Origin: Thermodesulfobacteriota bacterium
Lineage (GTDB): Bacteria > Thermosulfidibacterota > Thermosulfidibacteria > Thermosulfidibacterales > B14-G1
Direction of reading: 5' to 3'
Length of the DNA: 36,916 nucleotides
Assembly: GCA_024274915.1 (NCBI GenBank)
Contig: JAJSAC010000014.1
Span: 1-36,916, forward strand
The notes beneath the pieces were generated by a model. It was not told the origin of the DNA, did not search any database, and saw nothing but the letters and a program-made list of their open reading frames with translations. Numbering within the stretch: position 1 is the stretch's first letter; the number at the start of each line of letters is the position of its first letter. Made by a program: the position numbers and the translations under genes. Of the stretch, positions 2,072 through 30,604 are shown piece after piece.

Positions 2072-4819
2072 TCACTTCTTCTGCCCTTTCTGGGCCATGT
2101 CTTCCAGGATCTGCTTCATCTCCTGGAGTTCCTCTCCGTATCCAGCCCAATTTCCCTCTTTCAGGTATTTCATGGCCCGGTTGTAGTGGTATAGGGCCCT
2201 TTTGGCTTGCTCCGGTAGATTGCCTGGTGTCAGACCCTTGAGGGCCCTATTGGTGGCCTGGGCTGGTACATTCTGGGCGGAGAATATGGCCCTTAGTGCC
2301 TTATCGAGGGTCTTTCTCATCTCCAGTTTGTTGCCGAAGGCGGCTACCACCCGCTTGAGTTCCGGCATCTGGCTCTGCTCGGACTGGAGGTAAACGGGCT
2401 CCACGTAGATGAAGGATCTTGCTATGGGTATGACCAGTAGGTTGCCCCGAATGACCCGGGATCCCTTTTGACCCCAGAGGGTGAATTCGGAGGAGATGTC
2501 GGGCTTCTGATTTATCCTGGCCTCAATCTGCATGGGTCCATAGATGAGCTTCTCTTTTGGGAGCTTGTAAACGATGAGCTTCCCGTAGTTGGGGGTGTCA
2601 CAACGGGCGCACAGCCAGGCGATCATGTTGTTCTTTTTGGAGGGTGTCAAGGGAAGCATGAGGATGAATTCTTCCGACTTCTCCTGGGGCAGCTTCATGA
2701 TGATGTAGTAAGGGAACATGGGCTGTTCCGTGTCGCTGTAGATCTCCGTGGGGATGTTCCAGTAGTCTTCCTGGTTGTAGAAGACCTGGGGGTCCGTCAT
2801 GTGGTAGACATTGTAGATCCGGGCCTGGATGAGGAACAGGTCTGTGGGATAGCGGAAGTGTCTTTTCAGGAAAGGGGGCATTTGATCCATGGATTTGAAG
2901 AGACCGGGGAAGATCTTCTGGTAGGTCTGGATGATGGGATCCTTGGGATCAACCACGTAGTAATTTACGTCCCCATTATAAGCGTTGATGACCACCTTGA
3001 CGGAGTTGCGGATATAGTTGAGATCAGGCCCCTTCATGATTTGGGAGATGGGCTCTGAGTATGGGAACATGTTGGTCTTTGTGTATGCGTCGTGGACCCA
3101 GTACAGCCCGCCGTCATCGCCTACCACGATGTAGGGATCCGAATCGTAGGCCAGGAAAGGGGCGATGGTCCCGTCTCGATCTGTAATGATCCTGTGGTAC
3201 ATGATGCGGCTCTTGTTGGTGATGTAGTCGGTGAGGAGGATCTTGATGTCTGAGAAATACCATGCGTAGATCAGCCTCCTGAATATGCCTGAGATCTCTA
3301 CCCCTCCCTTGCCCTGGTAGGTGGTGTAGACGTTTTGGTCCCCTTTGGGATAGTCGAACTCCTTGGTCTTGGTTCTGACTATGGCATACTCGTCCGTCTC
3401 CTCTCCATAGTAGATCTCCGGCCTGGTGATCTTGATGGGTACGTCCGAGCGGGGCGGGATGTCCTTCACAATGAAGTTGGGCATGCCTTCCGGGGTGACC
3501 TGGTTTACGGGGTTCATGACCAGTCCATAGCCGTGGGTGTACTTCAGATGTATGTTTACCCAGGTCCTGGCCCTCAAGGGGATCTGGGAGGGGGGTAGCT
3601 CTCGGGCGGCCAGGGCCACTTGCATGTATTTTCCGAAGTGATAGCGATCCACGTCCACGCTTTTGAAGTCGTAGTATAAGCGAATCTCCTGGAGCTGCTT
3701 GTAGGTTTGGATCAGGGGCCTTCGGTCCCACAAGCGGATGTTCTCCACGGTGGAGCGGTTCCTCTGGATGTCTTTGTAGGTGATACTCTCCTGTACCGGG
3801 AAGTCTTTTTCGTCTATTTTATTCAGGCCGTAGGCCAGGCGGGTGAATTATATGTTGTTTTTGATGTAAGGGGCTTCCTTGGTCACCTCATTGGGCTTAA
3901 CCACGTACTGTTCCAGGGCGTTGGGATAGATCCAGATAAGGGCCACGAAAGCCAGGAGGTATAGTCCCACGACGTAGGCCAGAAGCCTCCATTTATGGAG
4001 GGCAGGGGCCAAAAATAATGCCAGGGCCAGGACCAGGGCCAGGATGAGTAGCCCCCAATAAGCCGGAATGAGGGCGTGGACGTCTGTATAGCTTGCCCCG
4101 TAGGCTACGCCTCGGGTGGAGTATAGGGTCTCGTATAGTTTCAGGCGATAAGTCCAGGCGACTGCCAGGAATAGGAGTCCCCCCAGGATGGACAGATGGT
4201 ATCGGGCTTTGGGGAGGATGCGAAACCGATTGTCCTGGACAACTACGGTGACGGATTGGTCAAAGTAGTAGGAGAGACCTACTATTACAAGGACCAGAGA
4301 GACGGAATAGATGCACCAGCTCTGAAGAAACTTATAAAAGGGAAGCTTGAAGACATAGAAGCCTACATCCTTTGAGAAAATGGGATCGGTGATACCGAAG
4401 GGGGAACTGTGGAGGAATCTCAGGATAGTCTCCCATGAGTTGACGGTGCCCAGTCCCATGATGAGGGCGAGGAAGAGAATGATGGCTCCCCAGACAACTC
4501 CTGATCCTTTGTCTCGGAAGAGGGAGCTGATGGTGGATGCGGGCTGGTCAGAGTTGACCAAGATTATGGAGCGGGTGTGCCTGCCTGTTTTCCTGGCAAT
4601 GGTGATGTTGATCCATGCGAAAGCGCCGAAGAGGATGGAAAAGGTAAGAAAGGCCAGGACCTTGGTGCCGATCATAGTGGTGAATACATTGGGGTACCCC
4701 ATGTTACGGAACCACAGCCAGTCGGCGTAGTATTTTAAAGAGAGGGTCAAAGAGATGAATCCTGCTGCGGCTACTGCTCCCAGGATGGCTAGGGTCTTTC
4801 TGGTTTTCACGGTTTTCAT
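2072..4819 (-). pseudogene. UPF0182 (COG1615) family membrane protein, interrupted by one in-frame TAA
   Basis: Two minus-strand frames, 4819-3848 and 3850-2072, lie in the same phase and are separated by a single TAA at 3848-3850 (codon 324 of 915). The N-terminal part has about seven membrane segments and ends YVVKPNEVTKEAPYIKNNI. After the stop the frame resumes with FTRLAYGLNKIDEKDF, which continues the family consensus (PYI..NI.FTR.AYGL). It then carries the large extracytoplasmic domain to a normal end. Total length matches intact UPF0182 proteins, and no frameshift is needed. The start at 4819 follows a strong AGGAGG; an upstream extension to 4981 has no support. The gene could be a recent pseudogene, a sequencing error or a readthrough case. 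Family function is unknown. Confidence 0.85.
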
Positions 4820-5071
4820 GTTGACCTCCTGGAATGGGTGGTACTGTAATTCCGGCGAAAAGACAAATGGCCGCCCGTTGATGCATAGGTGAAGGTGTGG
4901 GTTTGTTCCAGATACACTCCCCATGGGGCACCGTTTCTGGGCTTTTGCCAGGTGCATTGGGTATGCTATTGGGGAGGGCATGGCTGGAGCGAGGGATTGT
5001 GAGTGGGAGGATTTACTTGCAAGGGAGGCCCATTTTGGTGGAGTCGGGAATGGTTCTGTTGAGGTGAGGAG

Positions 5072-22677: not shown

Positions 22678-22703
22678 GGGGGTGACCCCTGGGGGCCACC
22701 CCC
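22678..22703 (-). terminator. Terminator of the catabolic operon
   Basis: GGGGGTG / CACCCCC arms surround an inner CCCC/GGGG stem. On the minus strand the hairpin is followed by acTTTTTTatc (22676-22668). It lies 40 bp past the phenylacetate-CoA-ligase-like stop and may also stop the plus-strand operon from the other side. Confidence 0.8.
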
Positions 22704-22742: not shown

Positions 22743-24131
22743 TCAGTCGGCCCAGACCTGTCCTCTCTTGTCGATGACCCTCTTGGCCTTGTGGGTGGCC
22801 CTGGGGATCTCTCCTTCCCTCAGGACTAAGACCCTTCTGGGGGCCACACCTACCCGGACCTTGATGGCTTCTCTCACCTCTTTGGCCAGGAGCTCTTCGT
22901 CTGTGTCCACGGTGTCCAGCTTTTCCACTTCCACGTCGAAGCGGTCTAGATGCTCTTCCCGATAGACAACCATGCGGTACTCACCAGTGAGGCGCTTATC
23001 CTGGCGCACCACGTACTCAATATCGCTGGGGAAGACGTTGACACCGGTGATGATGAGCATGTCGTCCAGCCTGCCGTGGACCCCCATGATCCTGGGATGG
23101 GTCCTGCCGCAGTCGCACTTCTCCCAGGTGACGGTGACAATGTCTCCCGTGCGGAACCGGATCATGGGCCTGGCCATCTTCCTTATGGTGGTGAGGACCA
23201 ACTCTCCCCTCTCCATGTCGCCCACAGGTTCGAAGGTATCGGGGTCCAGCACTTCCACAATGTGATGATCTTCGTAGATGTGGAGTCCTTCCTGGACTTC
23301 ACACATGCCTGCATTGGCGCCGAAGAGATCAGACAGCCCGTAGAAGTCGTAGAGATCTACGCCCCATAGGTCCTGGATGGCCTTTCTGGTGGCAGGAATG
23401 GATCCGCCGGGTTCTCCGGCCACAACCAGCTTCTTCAGATTGAAGTCTTTTTTGGGATCTAGGCCCTCTTTCATGGCCGTTTCACCCAGATACCAGGCAT
23501 AGGAGGGTGTGGTCCAGGTGATGGTGGCCTTGAAGTTGCGGAGGATGAAGAGGAGCCTTTCCGAGGGGATGGTGCCTGCCCAAATGCCCATGGCCCCTGT
23601 CCTCATGGCACCGATGACGTCGGGTCCACCCACGAAGAGGGTGAAGTTGAGGGCGTGGACGTAGCGGTCCTGGGGCCTCATCCCGATGCCCCAGAAGAGA
23701 CGGGCCTGATAGTCCTGGAACTCGTCGAAGTCCCGGGCGGTGAAGGGAGAGATGGTGGGCACACCCGTGGAACCGGAGGAAGCGGAAATGTAAACAATCT
23801 CATCTTCGGGCACACATATCATGTCTCCCAAATCAGGCACGGCTTCTTGCCTTTCCCTTTCGATCTGCTTGTTGGTAAAGGGGAGATACTTCACGTCTTC
23901 CAGAGTTTTAATCTTGTCGGGGGATACACCTGCCTCGTCAAAGGCCATCTTGTAGTAGGGGGAGTTCTCATAGCAGAACCTGACCATGTACTTGAGTTGC
24001 TCCAGTTGCATCTCCTGGATCTTCTCGGGGGCCATGGTTTCGATTTCAGGGTCCCAGTACTTCTCCTTGGGGTTAGGTCTTGAATAGACCTCTACCCCGA
24101 TACCGCCCTGCATCTTCTGCAGCTCCTTCAT
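22743..24131 (-). CDS. Phenylacetate--CoA ligase-like adenylate-forming enzyme
   Basis: The product has about 462 residues from the ATG at 24131, placed by AGGAGG. An upstream extension to 24362 overlaps the preceding gene and is unlikely. Adenylation signatures are VYISASSGSTGVPTISPFTA (about 112-131) and YDFYGLSDLFGANAGMCE. The C-terminal subdomain has the GRLDDMLIITGVNVFPSDIE hinge and a catalytic Lys near the end. This is the compact PaaK architecture. It activates an acid, probably aromatic, with CoA and ATP. It is the last gene of a seven-gene operon with a flavoprotein, permease, EtfAB and acyl-CoA dehydrogenase, so it probably primes that pathway's substrate. The exact acid cannot be read from sequence. 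Confidence 0.88.
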   Translation of the reverse strand: MKELQKMQGGIGVEVYSRPNPKEKYWDPEIETMAPEKIQEMQLEQLKYMVRFCYENSPYYKMAFDEAGVSPDKIKTLEDVKYLPFTNKQIERERQEAVPDLGDMICVPEDEIVYISASSGSTGVPTISPFTARDFDEFQDYQARLFWGIGMRPQDRYVHALNFTLFVGGPDVIGAMRTGAMGIWAGTIPSERLLFILRNFKATITWTTPSYAWYLGETAMKEGLDPKKDFNLKKLVVAGEPGGSIPATRKAIQDLWGVDLYDFYGLSDLFGANAGMCEVQEGLHIYEDHHIVEVLDPDTFEPVGDMERGELVLTTIRKMARPMIRFRTGDIVTVTWEKCDCGRTHPRIMGVHGRLDDMLIITGVNVFPSDIEYVVRQDKRLTGEYRMVVYREEHLDRFDVEVEKLDTVDTDEELLAKEVREAIKVRVGVAPRRVLVLREGEIPRATHKAKRVIDKRGQVWAD

Positions 24132-24154: not shown

Positions 24155-25621
24155 TTATTTCTTCGGTTTGGGTGGCTCGGGCACGTCTGCTTTGATGCCA
24201 CCGATCCTCTTGGCCAGCTCCACCCACTTCTCCCAGGGTGTGGAGACCCTGACCATAAGCCTGGCAGCGTCGGGGGAGCCTCCCCCGTGCATGCATCCAG
24301 GCACTCCGGGACCCAAGGTGAGCCACTCCACCAGTCTGGCGCCTCTGGCCCTGGTCTCCCAATCCAGACCGGCTGTGAGATATTTCTTGATGAGGTCTCC
24401 GTATCTGGGGTCCGTAATATCCTCGTAAGAGGGGAAGCAGCCTGTCTCTCCGATGCCACCGGCAATCTCTTGGGCCAGTCTGTTGGTCTCATAGGGTAGG
24501 GTGGCAACGTGAACTTTGTTGGCATTGGCCAGAAGGGGATCGCATAGCCAACACCCTGATGGATGCTTTTTGCCCAGGGTAGATGCGGCCACGCCCACGC
24601 CGAAGGTGGTTTCGTTGTTGACCTGCATCCTGATAAGTTTGTCGTAGAAGGTACGGATGGAGAGACCATTGGCCCTGGCCATAATGATGGCTGCTCCTAC
24701 CTTGATATCTCCCTGGCCCGCCACGCAACCGCCTATGGCCGCCCGGTAGGTGGAGGTGAAGTATTGGATCACCTTGAGACAGTACTGGTACTCACCGCAC
24801 ATAAAGACTCTCTCTTTGGGAACGAAGACATTATTGAAGAGGAGGTAGGCCTGGGTGATGCCGCCGATCTCGTTGGGGATGTCGAAACCTTCTTCAAATT
24901 CCCTCTTGTCGCTGGGTCTTCTGGTCTCCACGATGGTGAGACCTTCGATATCCCTGGGTACTACGAAAGCTACGGCGTACTCTTTGTCTGCCTCTTTGTA
25001 GGCCCCGCCGGGGAGGCAGAAGATTTCGTTGGAGGCAGCCACGCCGCAGATCATGCACTTGGCGCCCCTCACCACAATACCGTCGTCCCTCACCTCCACC
25101 ACTCTCAGGTTGAGATCAGGGTCTTTCTGCATACTGGGGGGTAGGGCCCTGTTGCCCTTGGCGTCGGTGAGGGCACCGGCACAGGTGATGTCCTGGGACT
25201 GGGCATAGAGAACCCAGTTCTTAAGCCTCTTGTGGTACTCGGTGCCCAGTTCCTGGTCCATCTCCCAGGTGGTGGCCCACAGGGCGTTTAGGGAGGTCCA
25301 TCCTACGCACCGCCCACCTGTGCATGTGCCTGTGAGGTGGTAAGCCTCTCTCTTTATCTTGCAGTTGTACACGGCGTCTTCGGGGGTCTGTACGACGGAG
25401 AGGTACCTGGAGATCTTCTCCCCTGTTAGGTGGGAGGTGGTGGTGAAGATCTTGCCCAGTTCAGGATCGTTGTAGGCTTCGAAGAGCTGGGCGTGGCCGT
25501 TGATGGTTCTCCTGGTGGCAGGATGAGTGGTGACGTCTTCAATGAGCTCCCCGAACTTGTAGATGTTGGGCCTCATCTTCCTGAGACTTTCTCTGTATTC
25601 CTCTGGTGTCCTTAATGCCAT
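24155..25621 (-). CDS. 4-hydroxybutyryl-CoA dehydratase / HpaB superfamily flavoprotein with altered active site
   Basis: The 488 residues align along their whole length with 4-hydroxybutyryl-CoA dehydratase. Examples are EEYRESLRKMRPNIYKFGE at the start, PPSMQKDPDLNLRVVEVRDD with DGIVVRGAK in the FAD domain, and CMHGGGSPDAARLM near the end. Against the Clostridium enzyme as I remember it, the first Fe-S pair is CX4C (Cys100, Cys105) instead of CX3C. The iron-ligand His is Tyr in TYRAAIGGC, and the catalytic Tyr and Lys beside that Cys are Ile and Val. The Glu before MHG..SP is Gly. Many extra Cys residues are present. It is therefore unlikely to dehydrate 4-hydroxybutyryl-CoA. It lies 23 bp before the CoA ligase. 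Confidence 0.8.
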   Translation of the reverse strand: MALRTPEEYRESLRKMRPNIYKFGELIEDVTTHPATRRTINGHAQLFEAYNDPELGKIFTTTSHLTGEKISRYLSVVQTPEDAVYNCKIKREAYHLTGTCTGGRCVGWTSLNALWATTWEMDQELGTEYHKRLKNWVLYAQSQDITCAGALTDAKGNRALPPSMQKDPDLNLRVVEVRDDGIVVRGAKCMICGVAASNEIFCLPGGAYKEADKEYAVAFVVPRDIEGLTIVETRRPSDKREFEEGFDIPNEIGGITQAYLLFNNVFVPKERVFMCGEYQYCLKVIQYFTSTYRAAIGGCVAGQGDIKVGAAIIMARANGLSIRTFYDKLIRMQVNNETTFGVGVAASTLGKKHPSGCWLCDPLLANANKVHVATLPYETNRLAQEIAGGIGETGCFPSYEDITDPRYGDLIKKYLTAGLDWETRARGARLVEWLTLGPGVPGCMHGGGSPDAARLMVRVSTPWEKWVELAKRIGGIKADVPEPPKPKK

Positions 25622-25654: not shown

Positions 25655-27076
25655 CTAGTGTTCACCCTCTGTTCCTTTGCCAGACTCTTTTTTGGGTGAT
25701 GTTGCCTTGTTGTTGGTCAGTTTGTCTTTAATGGGGTTGGCCCCGTTTTTCATGAACTCTATGGCCAGGTACATAACTGCTCCCGATGCCAATCCTAGGG
25801 CCGATCCAGGTTTAGCGGCGATAATAGAGCCCATCACTCCGGAGATACCTCTCTGGACGTTGTCTTCCAGCATCTCCATAGCCAAATAACAGCAAAGCCA
25901 GCCCTGAATGGCAAGGGTCAGGGCAAACCCCACTTTTAAGGCGGGCTTGCAGATGGTGACCACAATGGCTAGGCAGAGGGCGATGCTCATGCCCCAAAAG
26001 AGGGAAGTGGCTCCGCCCCAGTAGGTGGGCTCTTCTTCGGGGGTGCTGTGGATATATCTGTTGACCACGAGGGCTTGGCCGCCTGTCCACTGGGGGCCTG
26101 CCAGGGAGATGAAGGGAAGAAATACGGCTTCACCGATGTTTCTGATGGCGGTGATGATGTGGTTTCTGTTGGCGGAGAAGATCACCTTCTCGTCGGGCCT
26201 TTCTCTGTTGCATACGTCGATGAGGGATTCCAGGATGAGAACATCACCGAAGGCCAGAATGTAGGCCATGATGGCCAGGGGGATACCTTTGATCATGAGA
26301 TCTACACTGGGAAAGCCTAATCCTAAGGCAGATACTTTGGTGATCATGCCCGAAAGGTCCCAGTGGACCAGTCCCCATTTGATGACAGGAGGTTTCACTT
26401 CCTTCACGATGACGCCTACAATATAACCCACGACGAAGGCGGGTGCTATACCGTACTGGGCTATCCATCGGAAGATTCCGTACTCTTGGCGAAGCTTAAG
26501 GGCCCTTCTCGAGAAGAGCATGAAGAAGGAGAAGAGTATGGAGATGGAGAGGGTGATGGGCATCTCGCTGAAAAAGGACCCGGGCTTGAAGATCCTGATA
26601 ATGGAGGCCAGACCTGCTCCCAGTAGGATCCCTGACTTGATGGAGGCTGGCACGATGGAGACCGCCTTTTTGGCGATCCCGAAGCCTCCCAGGATGAGAA
26701 AGATGGCCCCTACTACCAGTTGGAAAGCTATTAGGGCCTTGAGCCTTTCAGGTCCCAAGGGAAACTGCACTAGGTAGCCGATGTACAGGGGAATACCAGC
26801 GGTGATCCACCCAGCTACAGCCGGATCACCAAAAGATGTGTGTAGCAGATAAAGAAAATTATTGATAATGACCATGGTGATGGCAATCTCGAAAGGGATT
26901 CCTAGGTATTTGGTCATGGCGGCTATAATGCCCATGGGGACCACCGCTAAAATGGCGCCCTGGATGAAGTCCGCCCATTCAACAGGGTAGTGGATAAAGG
27001 GGAGTCTGAGCTTTAAAGGCCCTCCCCAGTAGGGTTGTTCTGTACCGTACTCTCTTTTGTACAGGTAGAATTTCAT
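25655..27076 (-). CDS. Permease of the NCS2/SulP-like (APC-fold) type
   Basis: The product has 473 residues with about 12-14 hydrophobic helices. The first half contains GAILAVVPMGIIAAMTKYLG and then INNFLYLLHTSFGDPAVAGW. The second half carries a central YILAFGDVLILESLIDVCNR segment and a cytoplasmic Lys/Glu-rich tail. The layout recalls xanthine/uracil and sulfate-type permeases, but I cannot assign a substrate. AGGAGGTG sets the start. Its place between a universal stress protein and two CoA-pathway enzymes suggests that it imports the acid which the operon breaks down. Confidence 0.72.
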   Translation of the reverse strand: MKFYLYKREYGTEQPYWGGPLKLRLPFIHYPVEWADFIQGAILAVVPMGIIAAMTKYLGIPFEIAITMVIINNFLYLLHTSFGDPAVAGWITAGIPLYIGYLVQFPLGPERLKALIAFQLVVGAIFLILGGFGIAKKAVSIVPASIKSGILLGAGLASIIRIFKPGSFFSEMPITLSISILFSFFMLFSRRALKLRQEYGIFRWIAQYGIAPAFVVGYIVGVIVKEVKPPVIKWGLVHWDLSGMITKVSALGLGFPSVDLMIKGIPLAIMAYILAFGDVLILESLIDVCNRERPDEKVIFSANRNHIITAIRNIGEAVFLPFISLAGPQWTGGQALVVNRYIHSTPEEEPTYWGGATSLFWGMSIALCLAIVVTICKPALKVGFALTLAIQGWLCCYLAMEMLEDNVQRGISGVMGSIIAAKPGSALGLASGAVMYLAIEFMKNGANPIKDKLTNNKATSPKKESGKGTEGEH

Positions 27077-27114: not shown

Positions 27115-27552
27115 TTATTTAACCACGAGGACAGGACAGGGCACCCGTTCTACCATCTTGTCCACTAGCCCGGCACCTGTTCTTCTGTGGCACCCAACCA
27201 AGACCAGGTCTATTCCCAGTTTTTCCACTGCCTTAGCCACTTCTTTAGGGGGCATCCCCACTCCCACTGTAGTTTCATAAGGGAAGTGGGAGCCCATGAC
27301 CCGGGAGGCAAATTCTTTGAGGTTTTCTTCAGCTTTGGTCTTCATGGCCAGTTCCAGTTCTTCTGTCTTCTTTCCCAGCTGTAACTCCACCACGTCCGCT
27401 TCCGTAAAGAACAGGGGGGCCACATGCATCAACACAATTTGACTCCCCAGCTTATTGGCCAGGGCCTTCCCGTATTCCACAGTTTTTTGTGAGTGCTCGG
27501 TTAAGTCCACAGAAATCAAAATCTTTTTGGGTAGTTTCCAAGTGGGCTCCAT
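27115..27552 (-). CDS. Universal stress protein (UspA family)
   Basis: The product has 145 residues, a single Usp domain. It begins ILISVDLTEHSQKTVEYG, and the nucleotide-binding end reads LVLVGCHRRTGAGLVDKMVE followed by RVPCPVLVV. The phosphate-loop pattern GxxxxTG...G is close to ATP-binding members. It is embedded in the catabolic operon 38 bp before the permease, as is common for transporter-linked Usp proteins. A strong hairpin separates it from etfA. Confidence 0.9.
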   Translation of the reverse strand: MEPTWKLPKKILISVDLTEHSQKTVEYGKALANKLGSQIVLMHVAPLFFTEADVVELQLGKKTEELELAMKTKAEENLKEFASRVMGSHFPYETTVGVGMPPKEVAKAVEKLGIDLVLVGCHRRTGAGLVDKMVERVPCPVLVVK

Positions 27553-27628: not shown

Positions 27629-28627
27629 CTAATCTACCTGTAGTCTCTCCTTTAGCTTCTCAATGAGGGCTGGCAAGACTTGGGTGGCGTCGCCCACCAC
27701 TCCAAAGTCGCAGACCTCAAAGAATGGAGCATTGGGGTCTTTGTTGATAACCACAATGATCTCCGAGTCCTGGACACCCACCACGTGGTGCATGACCCCA
27801 GATATGCCTGCTCCAATGTAGAGTTTGGGATGGACAATCTTGCCGCTTTGGCCGATCATCACCTCTTCAGGGGCCCAGCCCTCATCAACAGCGGGTCGGG
27901 TGGCTCCTACAGCGCCACCTAGGAGTTTGGCCATCTCTTCAAGAAGTTGCCAGTTTTCTTTGCTGCCCATACCGTAGCCCCCGCAGATGACCACGCTGGC
28001 GCCTTCCAGGGCCACGGTTTTCTGCTCCTTGGCCTTGAACTCCACGACCTTGGGCTTGAGGTCTGCCTCTTCCAGTGCCACCTCCATGGGAACCACTTCT
28101 CCCTGGCGCTCCTGGGGTTCCAATTTGGGGAAGACACCGGGCATCACGGTGGCCATTTGGGGGCGTTTCTCAGGGCAAACGATGACGGCCATCATGGCAC
28201 CGCCAAAGCCTGGGACGATCTGTTCCAGGACACCGTCTTCGCCCAGCCTGAGATCTACGCAGTGGGCTGACAGTCCCGTCTCCAGTCGGGCCGCCACTCT
28301 GGGGGCTAGGTCGGCGCCCAGGGGGGTGGCTCCCATGAAGAGGGCCTCAGGTTTCTCGGCTTTTACTGCCTGGCAGATGAGCTTGGTGTAGGCAAGGGAG
28401 TGGTAGATCTGCAAGTGGGGGTGGGAGAAGAGAAAGACCTTGTCGGCTCCATAACCGAATAGTTCTTTGGCCTTGTCTTCCGCAAAGTCGCCCAGGAGCA
28501 GGGCACCTACGTAGGTGTTGGTGGCGTCGGCCAGCTCTCTGGCCTTGGCCAGCAATTCCAGACCTACGTCGGAGATACGCCCCTGAAGCTGCTCTATGAA
28601 AACCCAGAATCCCTTGTAGCCTTCCAT
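27629..28627 (-). CDS. etfA: Electron transfer flavoprotein alpha subunit
   Basis: The product has about 332 residues from the ATG at 28627, preceded by GGGAGGG. A GTG at 28642 that overlaps the etfB stop is the longer alternative. The N-terminal domain begins MEGYKGFWVFIEQLQG. The C-terminal FAD domain has GGAVGATRPAVDEGWAP, IGQSGKIVHPKLYIGAGISG and IVVINKDPNAPFF. With EtfB it accepts electrons from acyl-CoA dehydrogenase. Whether the pair is of the bifurcating type is not clear from sequence. Confidence 0.95.
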   Translation of the reverse strand: MEGYKGFWVFIEQLQGRISDVGLELLAKARELADATNTYVGALLLGDFAEDKAKELFGYGADKVFLFSHPHLQIYHSLAYTKLICQAVKAEKPEALFMGATPLGADLAPRVAARLETGLSAHCVDLRLGEDGVLEQIVPGFGGAMMAVIVCPEKRPQMATVMPGVFPKLEPQERQGEVVPMEVALEEADLKPKVVEFKAKEQKTVALEGASVVICGGYGMGSKENWQLLEEMAKLLGGAVGATRPAVDEGWAPEEVMIGQSGKIVHPKLYIGAGISGVMHHVVGVQDSEIIVVINKDPNAPFFEVCDFGVVGDATQVLPALIEKLKERLQVD

Positions 28628-28638
28628 AGCACCCTCCC

Positions 28639-29439
28639 TCACAGCATCCCCACTTGGTGGAGACGGTTGACCAGTTCCTCGGCCACCTCTTCGGGTTCGC
28701 CTTTGAGGATCTCCCTTCTACGTTTGATTTCAGGCATGAAGAGGTTGCGAACCCGGGTGGGGGATCCTTCCTGTCCAACCTTGGAGGGATCCAGGTCCAA
28801 GTCGCTGGCGGACAACACTTCCAGGGGCTTTTTCTCGGCGGCGAGGATACCCATAATGTTCACCAGGCGGGGGAGGTTCACTTCCTTGGTAACAGCCAAG
28901 ACCATGGGACCCTGTCCTTCAAGGACCAGTTGGGCTAGCTTCAGATCCATGGTTACCTGGAAGGTGGAGCCGTCCTGGGTTTGCACTTTGCTCACGTGGG
29001 TGATGTGGGGTACTCCAAGGTAGTGGGCGATCTGGGGGGCCACCTGGGAGGTGGAACCGTCCAGACTCATGTTCCCGCAGAGGACCAGCTGGAAGTGGGG
29101 TGCTTTCTTCTTGATGAGGCCTGCCAAGGTGTAGGCTGTAGCCAAGGTATCCGCCCCTGCCAGCTGGCGATCGCTGGCCAGGAAGGCCCGGTCGGCTCCC
29201 ATGGCCAGGGCTTCCCTCAAGGTCTGGGTTGTCTCGGGAGGCGCCATGCTCACCACTGTCGCGTCCCAACCGAAGTTGTCTTTGAGTTGGAGGGCAATCT
29301 CCAGGGCGTGTTTATCCAGAGGATTGATGACAGTGGGGATCCCTTCCCTCCTCAGGACCCCGGTTTTAGGGTCCAGGGAGAGGCGATCCCAGTGTTTGGG
29401 ATCGGGGATGGGCTTAACGCAAACCACCGCCTCCGGCAT
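28639..29439 (-). CDS. etfB: Electron transfer flavoprotein beta subunit
   Basis: The product has 266 residues. It starts EAVVCVKPIPDPKHWDRLSL and continues with INPLDKHALEIALQLKD, then ALAMGADRAFLASD and LVLCGNMSLDGSTSQVAPQI. This is the normal EtfB fold with the nucleotide-binding loop. It lies 16 bp after the acyl-CoA dehydrogenase and directly before etfA. That supports one electron-transfer unit for the dehydrogenase. Confidence 0.95.
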   Translation of the reverse strand: MPEAVVCVKPIPDPKHWDRLSLDPKTGVLRREGIPTVINPLDKHALEIALQLKDNFGWDATVVSMAPPETTQTLREALAMGADRAFLASDRQLAGADTLATAYTLAGLIKKKAPHFQLVLCGNMSLDGSTSQVAPQIAHYLGVPHITHVSKVQTQDGSTFQVTMDLKLAQLVLEGQGPMVLAVTKEVNLPRLVNIMGILAAEKKPLEVLSASDLDLDPSKVGQEGSPTRVRNLFMPEIKRRREILKGEPEEVAEELVNRLHQVGML

Positions 29440-29455: not shown

Positions 29456-30604
29456 TTAGAAGTTCTTCACTACATGGCGGCCCAGTACCACTTTGGCCAC
29501 CTGGGAGGTTCCGCCGGAAGGAATGGAGACCCAAGCGTCTCTCAGGAACCTTTGGACGGGGTACTCCAGGATGCAGGAGTATCCGCCGTGGATGTCACAG
29601 GCCATTCTGGCACATTGGAAGGCGTTCTCTGTGGCTACGTATTTGGCCAGGGTCATTTCCGTGTCACAGGGCAGACCCTGATCCATCATCCAGTTGGCCC
29701 GGTAGTTGAGGATTCGGGCTGCTTCGGCCAAGGCGTATATGTCGGCCAGGAGGAACTGGATGGCCTGGAGGTTGGAGATGGGCTTCCCATAGAGGACCCT
29801 CTCCTTGGCGAATTTGGAGGCCTCTTCCAGGGAGGCGTAGCAGAGACCTACGCCTATGGAGGCCATTCCTGGCCTTCCCACCCTGTTCACCGTGGCCAGT
29901 CCGATCTTGAGGCCTTCGCCGAGCTTGCCCAGGAGGTTTTCCTTAGGCACCTTGCAGTCCTGGAAGACCAGCTCGCCGCTGAAGGCTCCTCTGAAGCCCA
30001 TCTTGTTCTCTTCGTGTCCCAGGGAGAAGCCTTCGTAGGAAGGCTCCACGATGAAGGCGCTGAAGGCGGGCCTACCTTTGGCGTCCTCGCCTGTTCTGGC
30101 CACGATGACCATAATGTCTGAGACGTGGGAGTTGGTGGCGAAGCACTTTCTACCGTTGATCACCCAGTGGTCGCCCTCATCCCTGGCCGTTGTCTGCATT
30201 CCGAAGACGTCGGAACCACCGCTGGGCTCGGTGATGGAACAAACGCCCAGGGTGTCTCCCTTGGTCAGGGGGGGGAGGTACTTCTTCTTTTGCTCTTCCG
30301 TGCCCCAGGTCTCTATGGGCCAGCAGGCCATGTGGTGGACCTGGAGGGCGATACCCACGGCGGCTGAGACCTTGGAAATCTCTTCAACGGCTATGGCCCT
30401 GGCCAGAAAACCCATGCCATTGCCGCCATACTCTGGGGAGGTGACAAGGCCGAGGAGACCAATGTCCCCCATCTTTTTGATAAGGGGGCGGGGAAACTCT
30501 CCCGTCTTCTCCATCTCTTCCACCAGGGGAGCAATCTCTCTCTGGGCAAACTCGGCAACTGATTTTCTCAGGAGTTCTTCCCTTTCGCTCAGCTTAAAGT
30601 CCAT
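29456..30604 (-). CDS. Acyl-CoA dehydrogenase family protein lacking the usual catalytic Glu
   Basis: The product has 382 residues with the full acyl-CoA dehydrogenase fold. Visible segments are ISKVSAAVGIALQVHH, GVCSITEPSGGSDVFGMQTT (FAD and substrate loop), FATNSHVSD, GFRGAFSGELVFQDCKVP and the C-terminal HGGYSCILEYPVQRFLRDA. The stretch that normally reads IYEGTxQ is IPSGGTSQ, so the common catalytic Glu is Gly. At the alternative isovaleryl-CoA-dehydrogenase position (GLATVNRVGRPG region) there is also no Glu. It may use another base or catalyse a different reaction. It is the first gene of the operon, with GGAGGTG before the ATG and etfB next. Confidence 0.9.
   Translation of the reverse strand: MDFKLSEREELLRKSVAEFAQREIAPLVEEMEKTGEFPRPLIKKMGDIGLLGLVTSPEYGGNGMGFLARAIAVEEISKVSAAVGIALQVHHMACWPIETWGTEEQKKKYLPPLTKGDTLGVCSITEPSGGSDVFGMQTTARDEGDHWVINGRKCFATNSHVSDIMVIVARTGEDAKGRPAFSAFIVEPSYEGFSLGHEENKMGFRGAFSGELVFQDCKVPKENLLGKLGEGLKIGLATVNRVGRPGMASIGVGLCYASLEEASKFAKERVLYGKPISNLQAIQFLLADIYALAEAARILNYRANWMMDQGLPCDTEMTLAKYVATENAFQCARMACDIHGGYSCILEYPVQRFLRDAWVSIPSGGTSQVAKVVLGRHVVKNF

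Follow-up and report, generated by a model that had tools for sequence, protein, structure and literature searches.

A clade of the HpaB/4-hydroxybutyryl-CoA dehydratase superfamily with a jointly replaced active site in anaerobic bacteria and archaea

Introduction

What reaction is left to an enzyme that retains the fold of 4-hydroxybutyryl-CoA dehydratase (4HBCD) but hardly any of its catalytic residues? 4HBCD has to let hydroxide depart from an unactivated carbon. In the Clostridium aminobutyricum enzyme, the H292-ligated iron, Y296, K300, E455, E257 and T190 are credited with binding and activation of the hydroxyl group; C99, C103, H292 and C299 of its structure 1u8v are the known ligands of the [4Fe-4S] cluster. 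The window studied here, a stretch of 36,916 nucleotides, carries an open reading frame of 488 amino acids with an ATG start on the minus strand (24155..25621), which encodes a protein of the HpaB/4HBCD superfamily with a deviating set of these residues. We use the label HPAB for this protein and its orthologues, which together form the CX4C/Tyr clade. A preliminary description had treated it as one odd protein. Instead, it belongs to a widespread family with a recurrent module of ETF and acyl-CoA dehydrogenase (ACD) genes, which points to a function.

Results

HPAB is a member of the HpaB/4HBCD superfamily according to both domain scores and predicted fold. The Pfam domains HpaB_N (PF11794) and HpaB (PF03241) span its whole length with 272.7 and 119.8 bits, both above the gathering score. 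The nearest solved structures in a phmmer search were 1u8v (8e-102, ~40% identity) and 6vjr (1e-97, 37-39% identity), both matched end to end as the preliminary description had proposed for 4HBCD. An AlphaFold2 model with a mean pLDDT of 93.7 superimposed on 1u8v with a TM score of 0.94 at 1.6 Å and on 6vjr with a Z score of 52.9; both 4HBCDs fell in the range of Z 51-53. These two were the first structural matches, followed by HpaB and then by acyl-CoA dehydrogenases. The 4-hydroxyphenylacetate 3-monooxygenase HpaB shares the Pfam domains and the overall fold (TM ~0.83) with HPAB, whereas it is O2-dependent, has no cluster cysteines and is ~22% identical. With the NCBIfam models of the monooxygenase (TIGR02309/TIGR02310), HPAB scored 128.7 and 69, where the cutoffs are 480.2 and 885.2, respectively.

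The 1u8v numbering was verified via the ligand positions C99, C103, H292 and C299. In the alignment, one extra residue converts the CX3C spacing of C99/C103 into the CX4C of C100/C105, C299 is retained, and the remaining positions read T190C, E257Q, H292Y, Y296I and K300V. E455 is lost within a 4-residue deletion. The positions, with their conservation in the clade alignment described below, are as follows.

25322..25324 (-), Cys100, equivalent to cluster ligand C99 of 1u8v, invariant in 114/114
25307..25309 (-), Cys105, equivalent to C103 of 1u8v, CX4C spacing in 114/114
25046..25048 (-), Cys192 in place of Thr190, with Cys found in 108/114 and Ala in 6/114
24851..24853 (-), Gln257 at the Glu257 position, invariant
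24746..24748 (-), Tyr292 at the position of cluster ligand His292, invariant
24734..24736 (-), Ile296 at the Tyr296 position, invariant
24725..24727 (-), Cys299, equivalent to cluster ligand C299, invariant
24722..24724 (-), Val300 at the Lys300 position, invariant
24437..24448 (-), Glu392-Thr-Gly-Cys395 (GETGC), a clade-specific insertion, E392 and C395 invariant
24293..24295 (-), Cys443 directly before MHGGGSP and beside the deletion that removes E455, invariant, candidate fourth cluster ligand

The CX4C spacing and the exchanges of the histidine ligand for Tyr and of the catalytic Tyr and Lys for Ile and Val had been recognized previously and were confirmed by the alignment. The glutamate preceding the MHG motif is indeed changed, but not to glycine as had been assumed; since E455 lies inside the deletion, 'deleted' is the better term. 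Several changes had been overlooked, namely T190C, E257Q, the cysteine before MHG and the E392/C395 insertion. The many extra cysteines reported earlier fall into two groups. C395 and C443 are, like C100, C105 and C299, invariant throughout the clade and C192 is nearly so, whereas C189, C275, C282, C357 and C360 are lineage-specific. With AbfD, the C. aminobutyricum enzyme, HPAB thus has in common the full-length homology, the predicted fold, the three cluster cysteines, the MHG motif and a place in the pathway after CoA activation and before ACD/ETF. It differs in the substitutions and the deletion listed above, in the new residues C443, E392 and C395, and in forming a clade of its own.

HPAB orthologues with 82-92% identity and all substitutions are present in 6/8 genomes of the same order. 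Scanning public genomes with peptide patterns yielded ~72 HPAB loci (48-92% identity) in Zixibacteria, Thermoplasmatota, Bathyarchaeota, Baldrarchaeota, Methanomassiliicoccales, Desulfobacterota, Syntrophaceae, Spirochaetes, Negativicutes and Clostridia. Pattern-independent searches recovered the same group, separated by a clear gap: clade members were 54-67% identical, and nothing else in the superfamily exceeded 45%. By this approach, HPAB was found in 46 of 243 sampled Thermoplasmatota genomes, in 13/297 genomes of the phylum of Desulfopila, in 1/250 of the phylum of the Bathyarchaeota genome and in 1/148 of the Anaerosolibacter class. The resulting clade alignment comprises 114 rows, about 96 of them distinct (below 99.5% identity), with 48-92% identity. 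CX4C, Q257, Y292, I296, C299, V300, C443, E392 and C395 occur in HPAB and all 114 rows; of 95 sequences from elsewhere in the superfamily, not one has the set as a whole. The same residue set in every row rules out chance or sequencing error. A local oddity, a frameshift or a MAG error was rejected as an explanation on account of the same-order genomes and the ~96 distinct sequences.

In a tree calculated by a quick method with midpoint root, the HPAB clade formed one branch (SH-aLRT 100, stem 0.81) apart from the group of 1u8v and 6vjr, and the HpaB-like rows were located on a far branch. The Nitrosopumilus maritimus 4HBCD 6vjr, deposited as vinylacetyl-CoA delta-isomerase, has the canonical CX3C/His/Tyr/Lys/Glu set and groups with 1u8v, not with the HPAB clade. 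Judged by its defining residues and its place in the tree, HPAB is not a 4HBCD. A position among the characterised dehydratases, named beforehand as an outcome that would speak against the preliminary reading, was not seen in the tree. The clade is distinct, and part of it adjoins CoA ligase genes. Of 14 genomes searched in full, at least 8 encode, besides HPAB, a second protein of the superfamily that has the canonical residues; HPAB is therefore not simply their replacement dehydratase. Literature searches of open-access papers retrieved no published description of the clade, which is distinct, widespread across anaerobic bacteria and archaea and apparently uncharacterised.

The HPAB gene is located in an operon on the minus strand, listed here from 30604 downwards, in which neighbouring genes are spaced by -4 to 76 bases.

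29456..30604 (-), acyl-CoA dehydrogenase, best matched among NCBIfam models by acryloyl-CoA reductase with a score under the cutoff
28639..29439 (-), ETF beta, most similar to the bifurcating ETFs CarD, C. difficile Bcd-Etf and LctB
27629..28642 (-), ETF alpha
27115..27552 (-), universal stress protein (Usp)
25655..27076 (-), permease whose homologues show weak similarity to Xan_ur_permease/MFS_MOT1
24155..25621 (-), HPAB
22743..24131 (-), PaaK-like AMP-forming acid-CoA ligase, inherited together with HPAB, its start at 24131 being set by comparison with homologues
22678..22703 (-), terminator-like hairpin just past the ligase gene, 11 bp stem with 9 GC, T-run

The strong hairpin behind the ligase gene makes it likely that the operon ends there. 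Permease and CoA ligase had already been named as neighbours, correctly; the permease matched no Pfam family over cutoff in a Pfam search. The ACD is closest to butyryl-CoA dehydrogenases. ETF beta matched CarD with 3e-53, Bcd-Etf with 9e-51 and LctB with 3e-48, in contrast to 6e-17 for the classical 1efv. Elsewhere in the window (2072-4981, minus strand), a UPF0182 protein (PF03699) is split into two open reading frames by an in-frame TAA. Both halves match the profile in order, indicating a pseudogene or an assembly error.

Among 72 loci, EtfA/B genes were found within six genes of HPAB in 29 and an ACD gene in 23, many loci ending at contig ends. The order ACD-EtfB-EtfA-HPAB is repeated in Desulfobacterota, Clostridia and others, and Thermoplasmatota have ACD-ligase-EtfB-EtfA-DUF6125-HPAB. 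The DUF6125 protein (PF19620) immediately precedes HPAB in ~17 archaeal loci, including L049 and other Thermoplasmatota. Several HPAB loci have no ETF or ACD gene nearby. At L084 and L074 an ACD gene at first seemed absent and was then found further upstream. It would thus be wrong to take these loci as showing a direct link between ETF and HPAB.

The CoA-forming partner varies between a PaaK-like ligase, an MbcS-like ligase, a CoA-transferase of the butyryl-CoA:acetate or SCOT type and a 2-oxoacid:ferredoxin oxidoreductase, leaving an acyl-CoA as the common element. The window's ligase shares 56-65% identity with HPAB-adjacent PaaKs from other phyla, whereas the eight PaaK-like paralogues in its own genome reach at most 42%; the ligase thus is a real partner of HPAB. 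One locus (L264 in G878) contains ACD-EtfB-EtfA-HPAB-PaaK-permease, i.e. the gene set of the window minus Usp.

The HPAB-PaaK pair is repeated in Desulfobacterota, and three of the genomes have it amid genes of sulfur assimilation. At L267 (G808) and L276 (G1060) it follows MetQ-MetN-MetI, with rhodanese and NMT1/ABC genes present at both and MetY (O-acetylhomoserine sulfhydrylase) and CysK (cysteine synthase) at the former. At L266 (G737) the order is CysK-HPAB-PaaK-NMT1/ABC-MetY-ThiF. The sulfur operon is rare, given that a search in the family of G808 found the gene in just one further genome (n=76). At L276, positions 1655-2530, which lie a few genes upstream of MetQNI-HPAB-PaaK, encode a NifH-like protein (TIGR01287, 382 bits, cutoff 394) that might belong to a nitrogenase-like system for scavenging sulfur. 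Genes for MttB-type methyltransferases, corrinoid proteins or BCCT/betaine-type transporters lie near HPAB at seven loci (L068, L070, L073, L077, L078, L088 and L103). In genome G066, a homologue of the window's permease adjoins a canonical 4HBCD in the order permease-4HBCD-CoA-transferase, which puts HPAB and 4HBCD in parallel pathway positions. Despite its residues and tree placement, HPAB may still resemble 4HBCD in its pathway position.

Other gene orders were noted in two groups. In Zixibacteria/FCB (L041, L042, L044, L061, L063 and L065), a GAF-SpoIIE phosphatase and an EB_dh (ethylbenzene-dehydrogenase domain) protein precede HPAB. In Desulfobacterota L256 and L258-L261, it adjoins AOR-like (aldehyde ferredoxin oxidoreductase), HypE-like and molybdopterin oxidoreductase-like open reading frames, all labelled by eye except AOR and HPAB, and some of these loci have a second superfamily member in tandem with HPAB.

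Discussion

The catalytic machinery of the radical flavin/Fe-S fold was replaced once, as a package, and then spread across archaea and bacteria. As nearly all catalytic residues of 4HBCD are swapped alike across the group, a different reaction on CoA-bound acids is probable. The fold and the operon support the earlier view of a flavin enzyme in an acyl-CoA setting whose active site would be unable to work like that of the characterised dehydratase.

The same description had also considered a loss of the cluster, a view that the present data do not support. Three cluster cysteines without exception in 114 sequences make a clusterless protein unlikely and, together with the conserved C443, a rearranged cluster likelier than none. 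C443 is the best candidate for a predicted replacement of the histidine ligand; its loop is the least confident part of the model (pLDDT ~73). In the simplest reading, the cluster would be held by C100, C105 and C299 plus either C443 or Tyr292. The perfect co-occurrence of Y292 and C443 follows from their single origin and is hence not independent evidence for the cluster.

We tentatively favour a function of HPAB as an acyl-CoA lyase with FAD and a rearranged [4Fe-4S] cluster, in which C443 or Tyr292 would take the place of His292. An imported acid would be converted to its CoA thioester by the PaaK-like ligase. HPAB would then eject not hydroxide but a substituent that needs no protonation (thiol/sulfide, sulfite or amine), and the resulting enoyl-CoA would be reduced by ACD and the bifurcating-type ETF, which in reverse could oxidise the acyl-CoA. 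In favour of this pathway, the hydroxyl-handling residues have jointly been exchanged or lost in 114/114 with the three cluster cysteines retained, and ACD and EtfA/B accompany HPAB in both domains of life. Retention of the flavin fold and the cysteines along with loss of the acid/base and Lewis-acid parts fits a better leaving group, and the sulfur and methylamine-type neighbour genes suggest the groups named above. On the other hand, contexts differ between subclades, with sulfur-assimilation genes at three loci and amine-type genes in ~7 genomes. Moreover, crotonases can carry out simple beta-eliminations of thiols, and the need for a radical FAD/Fe-S enzyme is therefore not obvious.

A precedent for amine-eliminating flavin chemistry on acyl-CoA is the gamma-butyrobetainyl-CoA TMA-lyase BbuA (PMC8364193). 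It belongs to the acyl-CoA dehydrogenase family with ~10% identity to 4HBCD (PMC8364193) and is thus a functional analogue from another family. The papers on gamma-butyrobetaine and DMSP offered analogies and no HPAB homologue, and the benzene-activation cluster only a mechanistic comparison with 4HBCD.

It is possible, if doubtful, that HPAB represents a new class of FAD/[4Fe-4S] acyl-CoA lyases with an all-Cys or Tyr-containing cluster, which cleave C-S or C-N bonds in CoA-activated acids. Organosulfur or betaine-like compounds would thereby supply anaerobes with sulfur, amines and carbon, and the enoyl-CoA produced would feed electron bifurcation.

The ETF genes next to HPAB in bacteria and archaea, the ACD-like fold and the 2-oxoacid:ferredoxin oxidoreductase neighbours in Clostridia would also suit a redox enzyme that oxidises or reduces acyl-CoA and uses an all-Cys [4Fe-4S] cluster for electron exchange with ETF or ferredoxin, or else a double-bond isomerase; such a cluster would have no site-differentiated iron. 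This we consider somewhat unlikely, as a separate ACD goes with the ETF, at L084 and L074 from further upstream, and no isomerase-specific partner was seen among the HPAB neighbours.

It is unlikely that HPAB is still a dehydratase, acting on another hydroxyacyl-CoA whose hydroxyl would be activated by Tyr292, Glu392, Cys443 and Gln257. The succession of permease, CoA activation, enzyme and ACD/ETF mirrors 4-hydroxybutyrate fermentation, E392 is an invariant new acid, and L084 and L074 contain crotonase and 3-hydroxyacyl-CoA dehydrogenase genes. However, all known residues for water loss are gone in the entire clade, another dehydratase of the same type seems redundant beside the canonical second member, and the sulfur and amine contexts are left unexplained.

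Loss of all known catalytic residues and linkage with ACD-ETF might as well indicate a dead or structural subunit of an ACD-ETF complex. This is very improbable, given replacements that are themselves invariant over ~96 distinct sequences of 48-92% identity and HPAB-PaaK pairs without ACD/ETF at L266, L267 and L276. An O2-dependent HpaB-type monooxygenase, suggested by the Pfam domains, can practically be dismissed in view of NCBIfam scores far under the cutoffs, the far branch of HpaB-like rows, the retained cluster cysteines and the anaerobic lineages of most HPAB genomes.

Automated annotation is likely to label HPAB proteins as 4-hydroxybutyryl-CoA dehydratase or as 4-hydroxyphenylacetate hydroxylase. 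Metabolic reconstructions of microbes from sediments and vents would then contain spurious 4-hydroxybutyrate steps. If HPAB is a lyase as favoured here, it would add an anaerobic route for C-S or C-N cleavage and provide a natural test to separate the 4HBCD residues required for hydroxyl loss from those for radical formation.

Further deviating proteins exist in the superfamily. The order of the window genome also has a second HpaB-superfamily protein (L024/L002, G000:C29:20327-21775; orthologues L015, L021, L022, L023, L025 and L026), in which the active site is altered in another way: CX3C and His are kept, T190S, E257T and Y296C are exchanged, an extra residue precedes C299 (CGGTCK) and E455 is lost (TWHGAGP/TYHGAGP). 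It is conserved in seven genomes and stands in no obvious operon in G000. In a proteobacterial branch (L107, L108, L109 and L111), C103 is replaced by Tyr and C299 by Ala while H292 is kept. Another branch (L016, L018, L027, L030 and L112) has none of the three cluster cysteines and retains E257, H292 and K300 with Thr/Ser at position 190, judging from which it is possibly a cluster-free acyl-CoA flavoenzyme.
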